The translations under genes were made by a program, and so were the position numbers. DNA of 37,775 nucleotides from an uncultured Oceanospirillaceae bacterium (lineage in GTDB: Bacteria > Pseudomonadota > Gammaproteobacteria > Pseudomonadales > Balneatricaceae). The stretch covers positions 1 to 37,775 of the forward strand of contig CAJXNY010000045.1 in assembly GCA_913057435.1 (NCBI GenBank), read 5' to 3'. Shown piece by piece: positions 31,383 through 37,775 of the stretch. Under the pieces are notes generated by a model, which was given only the letters and a program-made list of their open reading frames with translations, searched no databases and had not been told where the DNA came from. Positions within the stretch are counted from its first letter, which is position 1. Every line of letters begins with the position of its first letter.

Positions 31383-32360
31383 CTAAAGCGCGCCAGCAAT
31401 TTCTCCAGCGTTTTCTGCCGCCTTTTCTTCATCGTTTTGTGTGCTGACCACCGGCAGGCGAATGGTAAAACAGGTGCCGACCCCCATCTTGCTGGTCAGG
31501 CCGATGCTGCCACCATGGTCTTTAATAATGCCGTGTACGACTGACAGCCCCATCCCGGTGCCGTGTCCGGGTGGCTTGGTGGTGAAGAACGGATTGAAGA
31601 TATCCTTTCTGATATCTTCCGGGATACCGGTGCCATTATCGACAATCTGAATTTTAATCTGGTCATTCTGGTGTGAGGAATGCATCCGTATCCTCCCGCC
31701 CTGTTCCATTGCGTGGGCGGCATTGATCACCAGGTTCATAAACACCTGACTCAGCTCGCTATTATTGGCAGCGGTTTTGGGTAACGAGGGGTCCAGGTCC
31801 AGATTAACGATACAGTGGTCTTTAATCTCGTTATTGACCAGCTTTAGTGAGGCTTCCAGGCAGGCATTAATATCAATGTACTGGCGTTCCCCCGGCTTGG
31901 TACGCGAGAACGTCTTCAGGTTGCTGACGATCTCCTGCATCCGCATCAGGCCTTCTTTCATATCTGCCATCATGTCGGGGGCATCTTCAATGATGAAGTC
32001 GAAATCGACATCGGCATCCATCTCGTTAAACGCGGCGACGATCGCATCGGGTAACTGGCCCTGTTGTTGCCACTGCTGCACCTGGGCCAGCAGCGCAAGC
32101 AGCTGCTGGTTATAGTCGGTGAGGGAGTTGAGGTTACTGATAACCACCGCCAGCGGATTGTTGATCTCATGGGCGACACCCGCCGACAGCATACCGATGG
32201 TCGCCAGCTTTTCATTTTTAAGCATGGCGGACTGTTGCTGTTGCAGGGCCTGATTTTTCTTGTACAGTTCCCGGCTGCTGTTCTCCAGCTGCTCTTCTGC
32301 ATCCAGCCGGGCCTGCTTTTCGCGATTCAGCGCCCGCTGATAAACCTCAACTTCACTCAT
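31383..32360 (-). CDS. hnoK: Soluble sensor histidine kinase of the H-NOX operon (HnoK-like)
   Basis: A 325-residue kinase with no transmembrane segment or sensor domain. A coiled coil (residues about 8-48) leads into the H-box GVAHEINNPLA with phospho-acceptor His64, then N-box VINAAHAMEQGG, G1 DNGTGIPEDIR, F-box NPFFTTKPPGHGTGMGLS and a second G loop. Lacking its own sensor, it depends on a partner, and the H-NOX gene overlaps its start (ATGA). In Shewanella and relatives HnoK is inhibited by NO-bound H-NOX. TGGAG lies 6 bases before the ATG. Confidence 0.9.
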   Translation of the reverse strand: MSEVEVYQRALNREKQARLDAEEQLENSSRELYKKNQALQQQQSAMLKNEKLATIGMLSAGVAHEINNPLAVVISNLNSLTDYNQQLLALLAQVQQWQQQGQLPDAIVAAFNEMDADVDFDFIIEDAPDMMADMKEGLMRMQEIVSNLKTFSRTKPGERQYIDINACLEASLKLVNNEIKDHCIVNLDLDPSLPKTAANNSELSQVFMNLVINAAHAMEQGGRIRMHSSHQNDQIKIQIVDNGTGIPEDIRKDIFNPFFTTKPPGHGTGMGLSVVHGIIKDHGGSIGLTSKMGVGTCFTIRLPVVSTQNDEEKAAENAGEIAGAL

Positions 32361-32905
32361 CAGGGCTCCAGGGTAATCAGGAAGTCACAGTGGTCCGCCC
32401 CCTGGTGCATGCAGGTTCGGTGATCGAGAGAGTATTTAACCTGATAGTGTTCGGCTGCACCGGCGATAAGGCCTTCTGCCAGCATACAGAACTTGCGCGG
32501 GGAGCTATAGCGCATCAGTAACTGTGTGTCATTAATCTGTTTGTGTTTGAAATCGGGTAGCGAGGGCTCGTCGTAGAGCTTTCGAACTTCTACGTGAATA
32601 ACATCGTGTACGCTTTTGAGAAAATCAAAAAAGGTGGTTTTCTGGTCGGTGAAAATGGGGTAACGCTGCACCAGCTTGCTGAACATATAACAGCCAAAGG
32701 CTTTGATCAGATCGCCGGTGGGAATGTCGAGCATCTCAGAGGCGCGGGTGGCCAGTGCGACAACCTCATCATCCGGGTAACTTTTGCCTGCGGTGTAGAT
32801 GCCCTGGCTATCCAGCTGGACATCATTTAACAGCTGATCCCAGGCGACCAGGCCTGCTTTTTCGATCACCATTTGTTCGAGTATATTAAAGACAATTCCT
32901 TTCAT
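32360..32905 (-). CDS. hnoX: H-NOX heme nitric oxide sensor
   Basis: A 181-residue H-NOX protein from ATG 32905 (AGGGA about 9 bases upstream). The heme ligand is His104 (VIHVEVRKLY), and YxSxR is Tyr133, Ser135, Arg137 (RYSSPRKFC). The residue five after Arg137 is Leu142, not the distal Tyr of O2-binding H-NOX, so it should be NO-selective. Cys140, His162, Cys165 and Cys173 match the Cys3His zinc site described for Shewanella and Vibrio H-NOX. Its stop overlaps the kinase start. Confidence 0.95.
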   Translation of the reverse strand: MKGIVFNILEQMVIEKAGLVAWDQLLNDVQLDSQGIYTAGKSYPDDEVVALATRASEMLDIPTGDLIKAFGCYMFSKLVQRYPIFTDQKTTFFDFLKSVHDVIHVEVRKLYDEPSLPDFKHKQINDTQLLMRYSSPRKFCMLAEGLIAGAAEHYQVKYSLDHRTCMHQGADHCDFLITLEP

Positions 32906-33025
32906 TGCAGCTTCCCTCACTGATCTGTTCAGTATTTATAGTATAAACCGGCCGCTAGCTGCTAAGATTTTCTGCATAAATACGCCCAAAGGGCACCATC
33001 GTTTTGCTGAACAAGGGATCGTGTG
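32906..33025. promoter_or_regulatory. Divergent promoter region of the H-NOX locus
   Basis: This 120-bp gap separates hnoX (minus) from the response regulator (plus). It contains a perfect 13-bp palindrome TTTATAGTATAAA at 32935-32947, and TATACT on the minus strand is a plausible -10 for hnoX. No recognisable NsrR, NnrR or NorR site was found. Confidence 0.5.
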
Positions 33026-34327
33026 ATGGAAACAGCCAACCGAGGAACTGTGCTGCTGGTTGATGATGAGCAGGCCGTACTGCGTGCATTACGCCGTATG
33101 CTGCGTGGCATTGGCTGCAAAGTATTAACTGCTGAAGGTGGTGCCCAGGGCCTGGCACTGATGGATGAAGAGCCGGTGAACCTGATTATTTCAGATATGC
33201 GTATGCCGCAGATGACCGGTGCTGAGTTTCTCAGTGAAGTGGCTCGTAAATGGCCCGATACCGAGCGTATTCTGCTGACCGGCTATGCTGACCTTGAATC
33301 AACCATTGCCGCAGTCAATGAAGGCCGTATCAGCCGGTATCTGAATAAGCCCTGGGATGATGAAGAGGTGCTGGAAGTGGTACGCCGTGGTTTGCGTGGT
33401 GTCCAGCTGGAGCATGAAAACCGTGAGCTGCAGGCGCTGACCGAGCAACAGAACAACCAGCTTAAAGATCTTAATCAGAACCTTGAAGCCCGCGTTAATG
33501 CCCGTACCGCCCAGTTACAGGCCGCACAGAAAAAGCTCAAAGGTGCCTACGACAATCTGACCGATGGCTACCGGGCTACGGTGCGGGTTTTTTCGACCAT
33601 GGTGCAGCGGCGCATGCGGGAAACCCATGAGGAGTCACAGCAGCTCAGCCGGATGATTATGCGGCTGGGGCAGATGCTGGAACTGGAGCCGGTAGAGATT
33701 AAACAGCTGCACTATGCCTGGCAGCTGCGCAATGTTGGTAAAGTCAGTTTTGCCGATGAAGTGATTCATGCCCCTTATGCGCTGCTGGAGCCAGAGGCTC
33801 AACGGCTGTTCCATAAACATCCGTTATTAGCCCATGCTTCTATTCTGACCATTAGGCCACTGGATCTGGCGGCGACGCTGATTCGCCAGCATAAAGAGTA
33901 TCTGGATGGCAGTGGTTATCCGGAACAGCGCAAGGATCTGGATATAGACCCCCGTGCGCAGATTCTCTGTGTGGCTAATGACTATCGTGAGATGGTGGCA
34001 GGCTTGATGTTTAAGCGCCCGCTGGGCTCTGAAGAGGCGCTGGGTTACCTCAAAGAGCATGCGGGTATCCGCTACCGTGCCGATGCAGTGGAAGCGCTGG
34101 AGAAACTGTTGCCACAGATGGCCCGTGAAGGGGAAGCACAGCACGATGGCAAGATTACGACCGCCGATATGAAGCCTGGTATGTCACTGACCCGTGATCT
34201 GATCAGTGAGCAGGGGGTGCTGTTGCTGACGCGAGGGTTCAAGCTGGACAACACTTCCATGTCTCGAGTGCGTGAGCTGGAGGCTAACCTGGGCGAGGCG
34301 TTTGAATTGTACGTACAGCTGCGCTAA
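33026..34327 (+). CDS. hnoD: Response regulator with degenerate HD-GYP domain (HnoD-like)
   Basis: A 433-residue protein: receiver domain (phospho-acceptor Asp57 in ISDMRMP; acid pocket VDDE; KPW), a coiled coil at about 120-175, then an HD-GYP-like domain. The catalytic HD is replaced by Arg235-Asn236 (LRNVGK) while GYP is retained at 297-299 (DGSGYP), so it is probably not a c-di-GMP hydrolase. Shewanella HnoD has the same architecture and is described as a degenerate HD-GYP that modulates another regulator. AGGGA lies about 8 bases before ATG 33026. Confidence 0.9.
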   Translation: METANRGTVLLVDDEQAVLRALRRMLRGIGCKVLTAEGGAQGLALMDEEPVNLIISDMRMPQMTGAEFLSEVARKWPDTERILLTGYADLESTIAAVNEGRISRYLNKPWDDEEVLEVVRRGLRGVQLEHENRELQALTEQQNNQLKDLNQNLEARVNARTAQLQAAQKKLKGAYDNLTDGYRATVRVFSTMVQRRMRETHEESQQLSRMIMRLGQMLELEPVEIKQLHYAWQLRNVGKVSFADEVIHAPYALLEPEAQRLFHKHPLLAHASILTIRPLDLAATLIRQHKEYLDGSGYPEQRKDLDIDPRAQILCVANDYREMVAGLMFKRPLGSEEALGYLKEHAGIRYRADAVEALEKLLPQMAREGEAQHDGKITTADMKPGMSLTRDLISEQGVLLLTRGFKLDNTSMSRVRELEANLGEAFELYVQLR

Positions 34328-34343
34328 CAGGGGATTAATAACC

Positions 34344-35684
34344 ATGACAGGGACGAAAAAGCTGCTGCTGGTCGATGATGATATCGGCGTACTGGGGGCG
34401 CTGCGGCGAAAATTCCGGGCGCTTGAGGTCTCGGTATCGGTTGAGAGTGATGTACTCAAGGCGTTGCACCGCTGCCAGTCAGAGCAATTTGATCTGATTA
34501 TTTCTGATCAGCGCATGCCACAGATGGAAGGCACCGAGTTTTTGCGTGAAATTCGCCACCTGCAGCGCGGTGCGCGCTGTATTCTACTCAGTGGCTATTG
34601 TGACTTCGATGCGGTAACGCTGGCCTTTAACGAGGGCACCATCGATCAGTTTATTGCCAAGCCCTGGGATGATGCCCAGTTACTGAGCTGTGTACGCCAG
34701 TTGCTGGGTGAGTCGGTACCGCTGGCAGCGGGCAGCCAGCTGTTTCATCAGATGCTCAGTGCTGCGCCTGTGATGCACGGATGCTTCGAGCAGATTCGCC
34801 GGATTGCCAGTGCCAATGCGCCGGTGTTTATCTACGGTGAAACCGGCACGGGCAAAGAGCTGGCTGCCACGGCGATCCATGCAGAGAGTTTTCGCCATGG
34901 CGGCCCTTTTGTGGCGGTTAACTGTGCCAACTTCAGCGAGCAACTGATGGAGTCGGAGCTGTTCGGGCATAAAAAAGGTGCTTTTACCCATGCGGTGTCT
35001 GATCGTAAGGGGCTACTGGCAGAAGCTGACGGTGGCACTCTGTTTCTGGATGAAGTCACCACACTGCCACTGGAATTGCAGGCGCGACTGTTACGGGTGT
35101 TACAGGAGCGGGAATATCGGCCCGTCGGTGACAATAACGTCTATAGCTTCGATGTGCAGCTGGTATCCGCATCTTCCACCCGACTCTCGGACGCTGTGGC
35201 CCAGGGGCTGTTTCGGGCGGATCTGCAGTATCGACTTGAAGTACTGCCGCTGGAACTACCGCCGTTACAGGCACGCGGTGATGATGCAGTGTTACTGTTT
35301 GAGTATTTTCTGCAACAGCTGGAGCCGACCCGTAAATGGCTGCTGGCAGCTGAGACAGCACGCTACCTGCGCAATCACTCCTTTCCTGGCAATGTTCGTC
35401 AGCTTTACAATATCGCTCAGTACACGGCAGCCATGGCGCAACAGGCACAGGTGACGCCGCAAGACTTGCCCACGCACCTGATGACAGTGCGGCCAGGCCA
35501 GCCGCAGATGACTCGAGAGGCCGTTGATGACGGTAAATCGGAGTGGGTGCTGGATGAGCTGGATGGCCCGCAGCTGTTGGCGTTACTGGCTGAGCATAAC
35601 GATAATCGTACGGCCACGGCAGCGACGCTTGGTGTCAGCCGAATGACATTATGGCGGCGTATGACCGCACTTGATCTGATCTGA
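34344..35684 (+). CDS. NtrC-family response regulator of the H-NOX locus (HnoC-like role)
   Basis: A 446-residue protein: receiver domain with Asp55 (ISDQRMP) and KPWDD as in its neighbour, AAA+ domain with Walker A GETGTGKE at 165-172 and Walker B GGTLFLDE, and a C-terminal Fis-type HTH (NRTATAATLGVSRMTLWRRM). The sigma54-contact loop reads GAFTHA at 212-217 instead of GAFTGA, so transcription activation through sigma54 is in doubt. It follows the HnoD-like gene by 16 bp with AGGGGA upstream. ATG 34344 is chosen over the longer frame that runs back into hnoD. It is the expected transcriptional output of the NO circuit. Confidence 0.9.
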   Translation: MTGTKKLLLVDDDIGVLGALRRKFRALEVSVSVESDVLKALHRCQSEQFDLIISDQRMPQMEGTEFLREIRHLQRGARCILLSGYCDFDAVTLAFNEGTIDQFIAKPWDDAQLLSCVRQLLGESVPLAAGSQLFHQMLSAAPVMHGCFEQIRRIASANAPVFIYGETGTGKELAATAIHAESFRHGGPFVAVNCANFSEQLMESELFGHKKGAFTHAVSDRKGLLAEADGGTLFLDEVTTLPLELQARLLRVLQEREYRPVGDNNVYSFDVQLVSASSTRLSDAVAQGLFRADLQYRLEVLPLELPPLQARGDDAVLLFEYFLQQLEPTRKWLLAAETARYLRNHSFPGNVRQLYNIAQYTAAMAQQAQVTPQDLPTHLMTVRPGQPQMTREAVDDGKSEWVLDELDGPQLLALLAEHNDNRTATAATLGVSRMTLWRRMTALDLI

Positions 35685-35701
35685 TCTCTCCCTTTCATGT
35701 C

Positions 35702-35727
35702 ACACCCGCTTGCTGGCGGGTGTTTTT
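35702..35727 (+). terminator. Rho-independent terminator after the NtrC-type gene
   Basis: ACACCCGC, TTGCTG loop, GCGGGTGT, then TTTT: a perfect 8-bp GC-rich stem, 18 bp after the stop codon. Confidence 0.9.
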
Positions 35728-36116
35728 CCGCTAGCGTAATGGCAATTCTGCCGCCGCAGTCGTCTCTGTTTTCTCATAAACTTTACAGTTTTCCCGCGTT
35801 TATGTAACAGCTGTAACACTGGTGTATCAGCTGTTACAGCTGTGACTGTAACAGCGCTGTTTATCCGGTCGTATATCCCCCTTCTTTATTTTTAACTATT
35901 TGAAATATAACAAATTATAAAAATTGGCGCGGTATTTGATTGTATCCCAGTGATATTAGTCATATCGGAGTACGTCACAGGGTTGTGACAGCGATGCAGC
36001 GATGAATCTACACAACACTGCCTGGCAGATGTGTATCACCACTGTGACAGCGCTCAGCCTTTAGCGTACCGCGTTAATTGTTCTTTCCAGGGTTGCTGCC
36101 CCGTTGCAATGGGGGC
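35728..36116. promoter_or_regulatory. Operator-rich region with possible non-coding RNA or leader
   Basis: No credible protein gene. CTGTRACAG-type sites are at 35803-35818 (two tandem), 35828-35839, 35846-35854, 35984-35993 and 36042-36050; arms TGTAACAGCTG (35803-35813) and CAGCTGTTACA (35828-35838) form a perfect inverted repeat. An AT-rich run (35885-35923) leads to TTGGCGCGGTATTTGAT (35924-35940), a weak -24/-12-like element (GG-N10-GA). A 20-codon ORF at 36002-36064 and a GCCCC/GGGGC hairpin (36098-36116) precede a terminator. Confidence 0.55.
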
Positions 36117-36147
36117 TTCAGGCGGTTTAACCACCGCCTGAATTTTT
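36117..36147 (+). terminator. Rho-independent terminator just upstream of the secreted protein gene
   Basis: TTCAGGCGGT, six-base loop, ACCGCCTGAA, then TTTTT: a perfect 10-bp stem with a U-run, only 27 bp before the next ATG. It either ends a short transcript or works as an attenuator in the leader of the downstream gene. Confidence 0.88.
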
Positions 36148-36174
36148 CAGCTCAGAAAGAAAAGGAGGGATACC

Positions 36175-36552
36175 ATGAAAACACTGCTGCATACGATTGC
36201 TTTGATTGCGCTGTTTACCGTCTTTTCCAGTGTGCCAGCGATGGCTGCTGACCTGCCGGCCGTGTCCCCGATTGACGCTGATGTTGCTGATAGCTGTATC
36301 CGTAAAAGTCGCCGACCGATTGCCGAGGTGGTATCGGGTCGTTGCACTGAGGATGAAACTCCCCATTACTTTGCAGATACGCTTCCCGAGTGTGACTGTC
36401 TGCTTGAACAGGATGCAGATGGCTTGTCTGTACTGCGCTTGAGCCTGCCGGTACCGCCATTACCACAGGCTGCCCAGGAGCACGCGCCAGCCGTACCAGC
36501 CGTATTCCGACGCCAGCTTGCCGATGCCAGTCATACTGCGCATATCCTGTAA
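36175..36552 (+). CDS. Small secreted protein (125 aa), unrecognised
   Basis: A clear Sec signal peptide (MKTLLHTIALIALF..., cleavage probable after SVPAMA at about residue 24). The mature part has four cysteines (SCIRK, GRC, CDC), an acidic middle and a Pro/Ala-rich tail. AGGAGG sits 6 bases before the ATG, the strongest ribosome site in this neighbourhood. No family recognised. It lies directly after the operator-rich region and terminator, and so may be controlled by the same signals as the H-NOX locus. Confidence 0.7.
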   Translation: MKTLLHTIALIALFTVFSSVPAMAADLPAVSPIDADVADSCIRKSRRPIAEVVSGRCTEDETPHYFADTLPECDCLLEQDADGLSVLRLSLPVPPLPQAAQEHAPAVPAVFRRQLADASHTAHIL

Positions 36553-36670
36553 TCACTGCTCACTTATTCGTGCTGATATGTCTATACAGTCATTAACCGG
36601 GGGCCTGGTGTTTGTCCACGGCCTGGTGTAGAACAGTAAGCCGATAAATTGACTGCAGGGATATCGTCTG

Positions 36671-37243
36671 ATGTTAAAACTGGTAGGCTCCACCCCGTCA
36701 CCTTATGTCCGCCGTATTCGCGTGTGGCTGGATGATATCGATTACGAATTTGTTGAGCTCGATATCTATTCCGAGTCAGGCCGCACAGCACTGCAAAACT
36801 ATAACCCGGCCATGAAAATCCCGATGTTGCTTGATGACGAGCAGCCGGTGTATGACTCGCGGGTAATCTTCCGTTATCTCAGTGAAAAACTGGACCGTCC
36901 GGCGTTAACGATTGCCCAGGAAAATCAGCTGACGCTGATTGATGCTGCCGTTGATGCCCATATTATCCTGCTGATCTCAGCACGTTCAGGGATTGATACT
37001 GAGCAGGATATGTTGCTGTGCAACCTGCAGCGCAACCGGTTAGCGCAAACGTTACCGGTATTGAGTGACTGGGTTGCCGAAGGTATTTTCAGCCAGTGGG
37101 AATACCCAGCGATTTGTCTGTTCAGCATGCTGGACTGGGTCAGCTTCCGTGAATTACTGGACTTGTCAGCCTGGCCGCAGTTACAGGCTTTCCACAATGC
37201 TCAGCTGGCACGCCCGCAAGTGCAGGCAACTGACCCTCGCTGA
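36671..37243 (+). CDS. Glutathione S-transferase-like protein
   Basis: A 190-residue protein with a thioredoxin-like GST N-domain: MLKLVGSTPSPYVRRIRVWL (Ser at the likely active position), NPAMKIPMLL with the cis-Pro, and DSRVIFRYLSEKL, the glutathione-binding SR/SxxI turn. The C-terminal helical domain is less conserved. It could be a true GST or a SspA-like regulator. Its stop is 3 bp from the stop of the convergent EAL gene. Confidence 0.86.
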   Translation: MLKLVGSTPSPYVRRIRVWLDDIDYEFVELDIYSESGRTALQNYNPAMKIPMLLDDEQPVYDSRVIFRYLSEKLDRPALTIAQENQLTLIDAAVDAHIILLISARSGIDTEQDMLLCNLQRNRLAQTLPVLSDWVAEGIFSQWEYPAICLFSMLDWVSFRELLDLSAWPQLQAFHNAQLARPQVQATDPR

Positions 37244-37246
37244 GGC

Positions 37247-37723
37247 TCAGGCGACACTGGGCTCAGTTGGCTGTGGTGAGATAATGTCCTGGTAGGCGGA
37301 GTGCTGTAGACGCTCAGTGAAATGCTGAGCGTCCATGGGCCGGTCGAACAGATAGCCCTGGTAACGCATACAGCCCAGCTGGCGCAGTACCGCCAGTTCC
37401 TCTGGCTCTTCCACCCCTTCGGCAATGACCTCCAGTCCCAGCTTTTCGGCCATCACGATAATGGTATCGACAATGGCGATATTGCTCGCTTCTTCGTGCA
37501 GGTTGGTGACAAAAGAGCGGTCGATCTTGAGCACATCCACGGTGAGAAACTTGAGGTAGCTTAGTGATGAGTAGCCCGTGCCAAAATCATCAATAGAGAT
37601 CTGAATCCCCTGTGCTTTAAGCAGCTGCATTTTTTCATCGGCCATGCGCACATTATCGAGCAGCATATTCTCGGTAACTTCCACCTCCAGGTAGCGGCCA
37701 TCGACGCCAGCGTTGTGCAGACG
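37247..37723 (-). CDS. EAL-domain c-di-GMP phosphodiesterase (C-terminal part only)
   Basis: 158 C-terminal residues; the N-terminal part is missing because the contig ends. EAL motifs are visible: EVEVTEN (metal Glu), [27 protein letters not shown] and GYLFDRPM. These include the metal and loop-6 residues expected of an active phosphodiesterase that breaks c-di-GMP to pGpG. The missing part may carry GGDEF, PAS or a receiver domain. The frame continues into adapter as MYKRQ, which is an artefact. Confidence 0.93.
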
Positions 37724-37775
37724 CTGTCTCTTATACACATCTCCGAGCCCACGAGACCGAGGCTGATCTCGTATG
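37724..37775. other. Illumina Nextera adapter (reverse complement), not genomic
   Basis: Starts CTGTCTCTTATACACATCT (the mosaic end in reverse), then CCGAGCCCACGAGAC, the index CGAGGCTG and ATCTCGTATG. It is the exact reverse complement of the left adapter plus two more bases. The peptides MCIRDS and MYKRQ from this stretch are familiar artefact sequences in metagenomic protein sets. Confidence 0.97.

Follow-up and report, generated by a model that had tools for sequence, protein, structure and literature searches.

The window analysed here, contig C45 with its 37,775 nt, comes from a 4.76-Mb genome that has three relatives of the same genus, G003 and G001 among them. It contains the set of genes that PMC8738867 and PMC6335343 (parts available to us) name hnoX, hnoK, hnoD and hnoC in Shewanella oneidensis. 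We use these names as look-alike labels, the Shewanella side being known from the descriptions in the papers. The features of the analysed locus, hereafter the own locus, are the following:

31383-32360, minus strand: histidine kinase gene, hnoK-like (Pfam HisKA and HATPase_c)
32360-32920, minus strand: H-NOX (haem NO-binding) gene, hnoX-like (Pfam HNOB, E 5e-39)
33023-34327, plus strand: gene for a response regulator with a degenerate HD-GYP domain, hnoD-like (Pfam Response_reg and HD_5)
34344-35684, plus strand: gene for an NtrC-type response regulator, hnoC-like (Pfam and an alignment of 14 proteins), with a GAFTHA motif
35702-35727, plus strand: intrinsic terminator, presumably of hnoC (-15.9 kcal/mol)
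35803-35853, plus strand: candidate operator/enhancer array, composed of an exact dyad TGTAACAGCTGTAACA (35803-35818), a near-dyad (35823-35838) and a further core (35847-35853)
35893-35905, plus strand: IHF-like box YAAN4TTGAWW
35925-35942, plus strand: sigma54-type promoter element TGGCGCGGTATTTGATTG, with TGG at 35925
35951-36147, plus strand: putative leader RNA, its start placed from the promoter position, with two TGTNACA cores (35984, 36043)
36117-36147, plus strand: intrinsic terminator with a 10-bp stem (-16.9 kcal/mol), separated by 27 nt from the next start codon
36175-36552, plus strand: gene for a small predicted secreted protein of 125 aa, the presumed target

The last 52 bases of the window (37724-37775) are presumably Illumina Nextera adapter sequence, an artefact, so that the EAL-type gene at the contig end is cut. 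The HnoC-like protein has a receiver, an AAA+ and a Fis-type HTH domain, and its gene adjoins those for the H-NOX protein, the kinase and the HD-GYP regulator. The hnoD-like product scores above the cut-off of NCBIfam NF053512 (NosR family) and, by eye, its HD and HHE motifs are altered, as in a degenerate HD-GYP domain. The neighbouring genes for H-NOX and kinase suggest NO as the input of this system.

A candidate operator array downstream of hnoC

The original prediction had described, between two strong terminators, a region lacking a convincing protein gene, with at least six CTGTRACAG sites, two of them forming a perfect 11-bp inverted repeat. We found both terminators, and the only ORF of the region is one of 20 codons (36002-36064), with no ribosome-binding site by eye. 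The number of sites was too high: CTGTRACAG occurs exactly three times in 35702-36147 (35831 on the minus strand, 35846 and 36042 on the plus strand), the others having one mismatch, and six is reached by the looser core TGTNACA (35803, 35812, 35832, 35847, 35984 and 36043). Four of these six cores lie upstream of the putative promoter and two within the putative transcript. We also found the perfect inverted repeat (35830-35839/35846-35855), with a length of 10 bp instead of 11. In the interval 35685-36174 we counted seven TGTNACA cores against a mean of 0.18 after dinucleotide shuffling, and none of 5000 shuffles reached seven.

Two places in the own genome have the exact dyad TGTNACANNTGTNACA: the array and the coding region of rpoS, the latter set aside as a chance match. 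When up to one mismatch is allowed there are 13 places, four of them in the window, against 8 for a reversed control pattern. Given this scarcity, the array may be the only target in the genome. No operators were found before the own hnoX or hnoD.

To find related loci we used an HnoC threshold of E 1e-90, because at E 1e-60 a match was obtained in 143 of 144 relatives, mostly to general NtrC-type proteins. At 1e-90 we found HnoC in the family (8 of 116 genomes), in the order (4 of 390) and in the class (4 of 369), each count including the own genome; four genomes around G563 and ten around G182 added none, and plasmids gave no match at this threshold. The distinct hnoC-type loci number 14 with the own one. 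A TGTNACA array lies downstream of hnoC in nine of them, so the sites are conserved in relatives, a check proposed with the original prediction. It is absent from this position in G304, G323, G101, G625 and G489; the first two of these have an exact dyad before hnoD instead. Exact dyads are also found just before hnoX in loci L045 and L066. Directly before the Amphritea hnoX (L066 293-326, also L127), four TGTCACA cores follow one another in a row, 9 bp apart, likely a site of autoregulation. The H-NOX locus of G036, considered as a second target, was rejected, with no TGTNACA across 14 kb.

A putative sigma54-type promoter at conserved distances from the array

For each of the nine array loci we give below the distance at which the last array site begins before TGG, the score of the promoter element with a sigma54 matrix, the length from the putative start to ATG, and the predicted product behind the promoter:

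Own locus: 78 bp; 11.6 bits; 224 nt; 125-aa secreted protein
G003: 78 bp; 11.6 bits; 125-aa secreted protein
G001: 79 bp; 17.5 bits; 240 nt; homologue of the 125-aa protein
G036: 69 bp; 18.3 bits; no evident secreted ORF
G017: 69 bp; 14.1 bits; 61 nt; a different secreted protein, 149 aa
G148: 69 bp; 13.5 bits; 60 nt; 149-aa protein
G147: 69 bp; 14.4 bits; 60 nt; 149-aa protein
G182: 71 bp; 8.7 bits; 34 nt; protein with a PEP-CTERM-like sorting tail (by eye)
G563: 69 bp; 14.8 bits; 56 nt; 149-aa protein

The matrix was made from 29 intergenic sites in Table 3 of PMC3844500, a source available to us in part. The own element ranks second among 75,516 window positions and, in all nine array loci, the same element is the top match in the first 400 bp after hnoC. 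The scores are modest, since seven of the nine elements, including the own one, lie below the lowest reference site (range 16.0-23.2), and 2.1% of random 400-bp stretches score at least 11.6. The five regions downstream of hnoC that have no array gave top scores of 2.3, 2.3, 9.8, 0.5 and 5.3, the 9.8 of G101 exceeding the 8.7 of G182 with its array. The GG at -24 and its spacing to -12 are kept in all nine loci; the -12 dinucleotide is GA or GT instead of GC in eight, as it also is in four of the 29 reference sites. A sigma70 promoter for the leader was considered and rejected, a scan of 34500-37775 giving none between 35860 and 35950.

The IHF-like box, whose pattern we take to resemble the IHF consensus, occurs once in the window, at 35893. 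It was found in seven of the nine array loci, 30-32 bp before TGG (32 bp, but 30 bp in G182), and in none of the five other hnoC loci; of the two remaining array loci, G017 has a near-match by eye and G563 has none. The AT-rich stretch and the TTGGCGC-N5-TTGAT element which had been predicted are both present. The predicted spacing was about 70 bp; the last upstream site starts 78 bp before TGG. The comparison backs a sigma54-type promoter, an IHF-like box and an enhancer array.

The distances between the last site and TGG, all nine being 69-71 or 78-79 bp, form two groups that differ by roughly one turn of the helix. At 200,000 random places in the fetched loci, taken irrespective of intergenic position or AT-richness, a -24 core at the observed offsets had a frequency of 0.0147, a core anywhere at 60-90 bp 0.074, and a core plus box 0.000195; the nine loci are not independent, G003 being close to the own genome and G017, G147 and G148 belonging to one genus. 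In G563, which belongs to another order (L074 6014-7996), hnoC, array, promoter and 149-aa secreted protein are all kept. Its genome gave no H-NOX match, and its HnoC module may serve another sensor.

Co-occurrence of the dyad with an HnoC helix

We compared the presence of the exact dyad with the helix of the HnoC proteins. All 11 aligned loci whose helix is SRM[TS]LWR have TGTNACANNTGTNACA, and none of the three loci with another helix (G101, G625 and G489) has the dyad. A more distant HnoC in L094 has the helix SRMTLWRKM yet no dyad, which brings the total to 11/12 against 0/3 (Fisher p 0.009, kinship uncorrected). Nine of 56 named H-NOX loci have an HnoC-like match. The four strong ones, over 600 bits (L077, L081, L102 and L127, that is G003, G148, G001 and G147), each carry an array with four or five sites, and the five weaker ones (L094, L096, L105, L110 and L132) have none; a loose pair of sites was seen in 2 of the 47 H-NOX loci with no HnoC match. 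The region is most likely an HnoC-bound enhancer followed by a sigma54 promoter, and the NtrC-type regulator that had been named as candidate binder is favoured by this comparison.

Predicted secreted proteins behind the promoter

The first ORF downstream has a signal peptide, by eye, in eight of the nine array loci. The own secreted gene is under purifying selection: of its codon changes relative to G003, 19 are synonymous and 5 non-synonymous. Its product has no Pfam or NCBIfam match. Predicted folds of two of the secreted proteins were unusable (mean pLDDT 40.6 and 32.6). The protein with the sorting tail in G182 is found at L070 5382-5850. In G017 (L045 8043-12501) the promoter leads a cluster encoding the 149-aa secreted protein, a secretin-like protein, which is below curated cut-offs, and an LruC-domain protein, which is above them; this cluster might serve to export a surface fibre. 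In G036 (L044 7602-8350) array and promoter are followed by about 600 bp with no evident secreted ORF, and then by a converging gene.

A putative terminated leader in two loci

Between the own locus and G003 the leader has one deletion and, over 196 bases, six substitutions. Among fourfold sites, 52 of 230 are changed in hnoC, 56 of 210 in hnoD and, within the secreted gene, 11 of 69; between array and box, 9 of 30 positions are changed. Relative to these the leader is conserved, with Fisher p ranging between 4e-12 and 6e-4; when it is compared with the hnoC-array spacer (9/111), the difference is non-significant (p 0.057). The leader is probably constrained, on the comparison of this one species pair, and DNA sites inside it may contribute to its conservation.

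The own leader has a fold z of -2.22, five of 200 shuffles being as stable. The folds of the own and G003 leaders have the 5' hairpin and the terminator in common and differ in the middle. The 5' arm of the terminator is partly paired before the 3' arm is made (0.05-0.95 per base), with no clear antiterminator. Several identities for the leader were set aside: a leader peptide (36002-36064 has two synonymous and two non-synonymous changes relative to G003 by eye), a known RNA family (no Rfam match better than E 0.5, all well short of the gathering score) and a repeated element (matched once in the own genome, with 8 of 23 first-look candidates scored). Around the promoters of L043, L044, L045 and L074, Rfam gave no match at gathering level.

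A leader of about 197 nt with a scan-positive terminator, placed between promoter and gene like an attenuator, is found in the own locus and G003, two of the nine array loci. In G001 one scan gave a weak candidate (-8.1 kcal/mol) and the other none; a strong hairpin (-25.2) near its gene is followed by GCCTTTTC. Within 330 nt, no terminator was detected in G017, G148, G147, G563, G182 or G036. Conservation of the leader, which had been proposed as a check, was seen towards G003; the terminated leader is absent from the other array loci.

Discussion

The array, the promoter-like element, their conserved geometry and the conserved leader lie in the DNA itself; binding by HnoC, use of sigma54, the start site, NO input, the direction of control and attenuation are what we infer from them. 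The reading that we consider probable is that of an enhancer and sigma54-type promoter for the secreted-protein gene at 36175, controlled by HnoC with NO as input, and with an attenuated leader. The H-NOX protein and its kinase would set the phosphorylation of HnoC according to NO, and HnoC would bind the dyads at 35803-35853. A bend at the IHF-like box at 35893 would bring it to RNA polymerase-sigma54 at 35925, and transcription would start near 35951 and read into the gene at 36175. In the own locus and G003, where the structured leader ends in a terminator just before the gene, expression would also need read-through.

The direction of control could be the opposite. The GAFTGA loop of bEBPs is intact in ten of the 14 HnoC proteins and reads GAFTHA in the own, G003 and G001 proteins and GAFTSA in that of G036; the own HnoC may therefore repress rather than activate. 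The available part of PMC2941729 describes NorR variants with each of the other residues in place of this glycine: full constitutive activity was seen with D and N, activity without NO with Q, S, C and M, and histidine is absent from the active substitutions listed there. A less probable but serious alternative is that HnoC, as a repressor, occupies the array together with both leader sites until it is phosphorylated, another protein activating the promoter. The GAFTHA motif of the three proteins is in line with this, as are the repression by Shewanella HnoC of its own NO-sensing hno regulon (PMC8738867, part available), the two TGTNACA cores in the leader of the own locus (8 of 5000 shuffles reach two) and of G001 (23 of 5000), and the operators before hnoX or hnoD in L045, L066, L068 and L069. 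However, the array keeps a fixed distance before the sigma54-type element, as for an activator, and GAFTGA is kept in most HnoC proteins. That an unrelated regulator binds the array, its position next to hnoC being incidental, appears the least probable of the alternatives: binding by HnoC is itself deduced from sequence, L094 has the helix without the dyad and G563 has array and hnoC in a genome with no H-NOX match, but dyad and helix otherwise co-occur, and L068 and L069, which lack a downstream array, carry the exact dyad before hnoD in the same cluster.

The other question is what the promoter makes. The original prediction gave preference to a small RNA and mentioned an attenuated leader as the alternative. 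It is unlikely that the product is a free, Qrr-like trans-acting RNA of about 197 nt ending at 36147, with the secreted gene reached by leaky read-through alone. The strong terminator, the conservation of the leader towards G003, its fold z and the array and promoter of G036 with no evident secreted ORF would suit such an RNA, but a protein gene is reached in eight of nine loci, the terminated leader exists in two, Rfam gives no match, and G036 has just a weak terminator-like site on the plus strand. Slightly less likely still is a mixed case, in which the sigma54 promoter under the H-NOX phosphorelay would give here mainly a trans-acting NO-responsive RNA of this length, serving also as leader upon read-through. 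As a general feature the small RNA is not supported: a predicted secreted-protein gene comes first in eight of nine loci, the putative leader is just 34-61 nt long in five of these eight, and the terminated leader itself is present in the own locus and G003. The attenuating leader is the simpler reading, since 27 nt separate the terminator from the protein gene; it fits better, and the leader probably matters, more likely in this way than as a Qrr-like small RNA.

Through this comparison the HnoC family gains an assigned DNA operator (TGTNACANNTGTNACA) and a sigma54-type promoter, with secreted proteins indicated among what H-NOX signalling controls. Binding site, target and the part played by the GAFTGA variants become directly testable. 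In the H-NOX papers surveyed by title and abstract opening, a set that lacks most subscription papers, no sigma54 target of HnoC is named, and the same survey gave no paper joining sigma54 and an attenuator.

Qrr small RNAs have a sigma54-type promoter and a terminated transcript under the NtrC-type response regulator LuxO. With its putative promoter, transcript and regulator the own locus resembles them in these three respects, and it differs from them in its terminator, placed just before a protein gene, in the lack of an Rfam match, and in the absence of the terminated leader from most relatives. With the HnoX-HnoK-HnoD-HnoC system of Shewanella oneidensis it shares a single cluster with H-NOX, kinase, degenerate HD-GYP regulator and HnoC-type factor (PMC6335343 and PMC8738867, parts available), but the Shewanella HnoC is described as repressing the hno genes, whereas the own operators precede the sigma54-type promoter of a secreted-protein gene. 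A further parallel is NorR-norVW, described in the available part of PMC2941729, with an NO-linked enhancer-binding protein and several sites upstream of a sigma54 promoter. NorR, however, senses NO itself through a GAF domain, whereas HnoC has a receiver domain, and its binding site is unlike the HnoC dyad.
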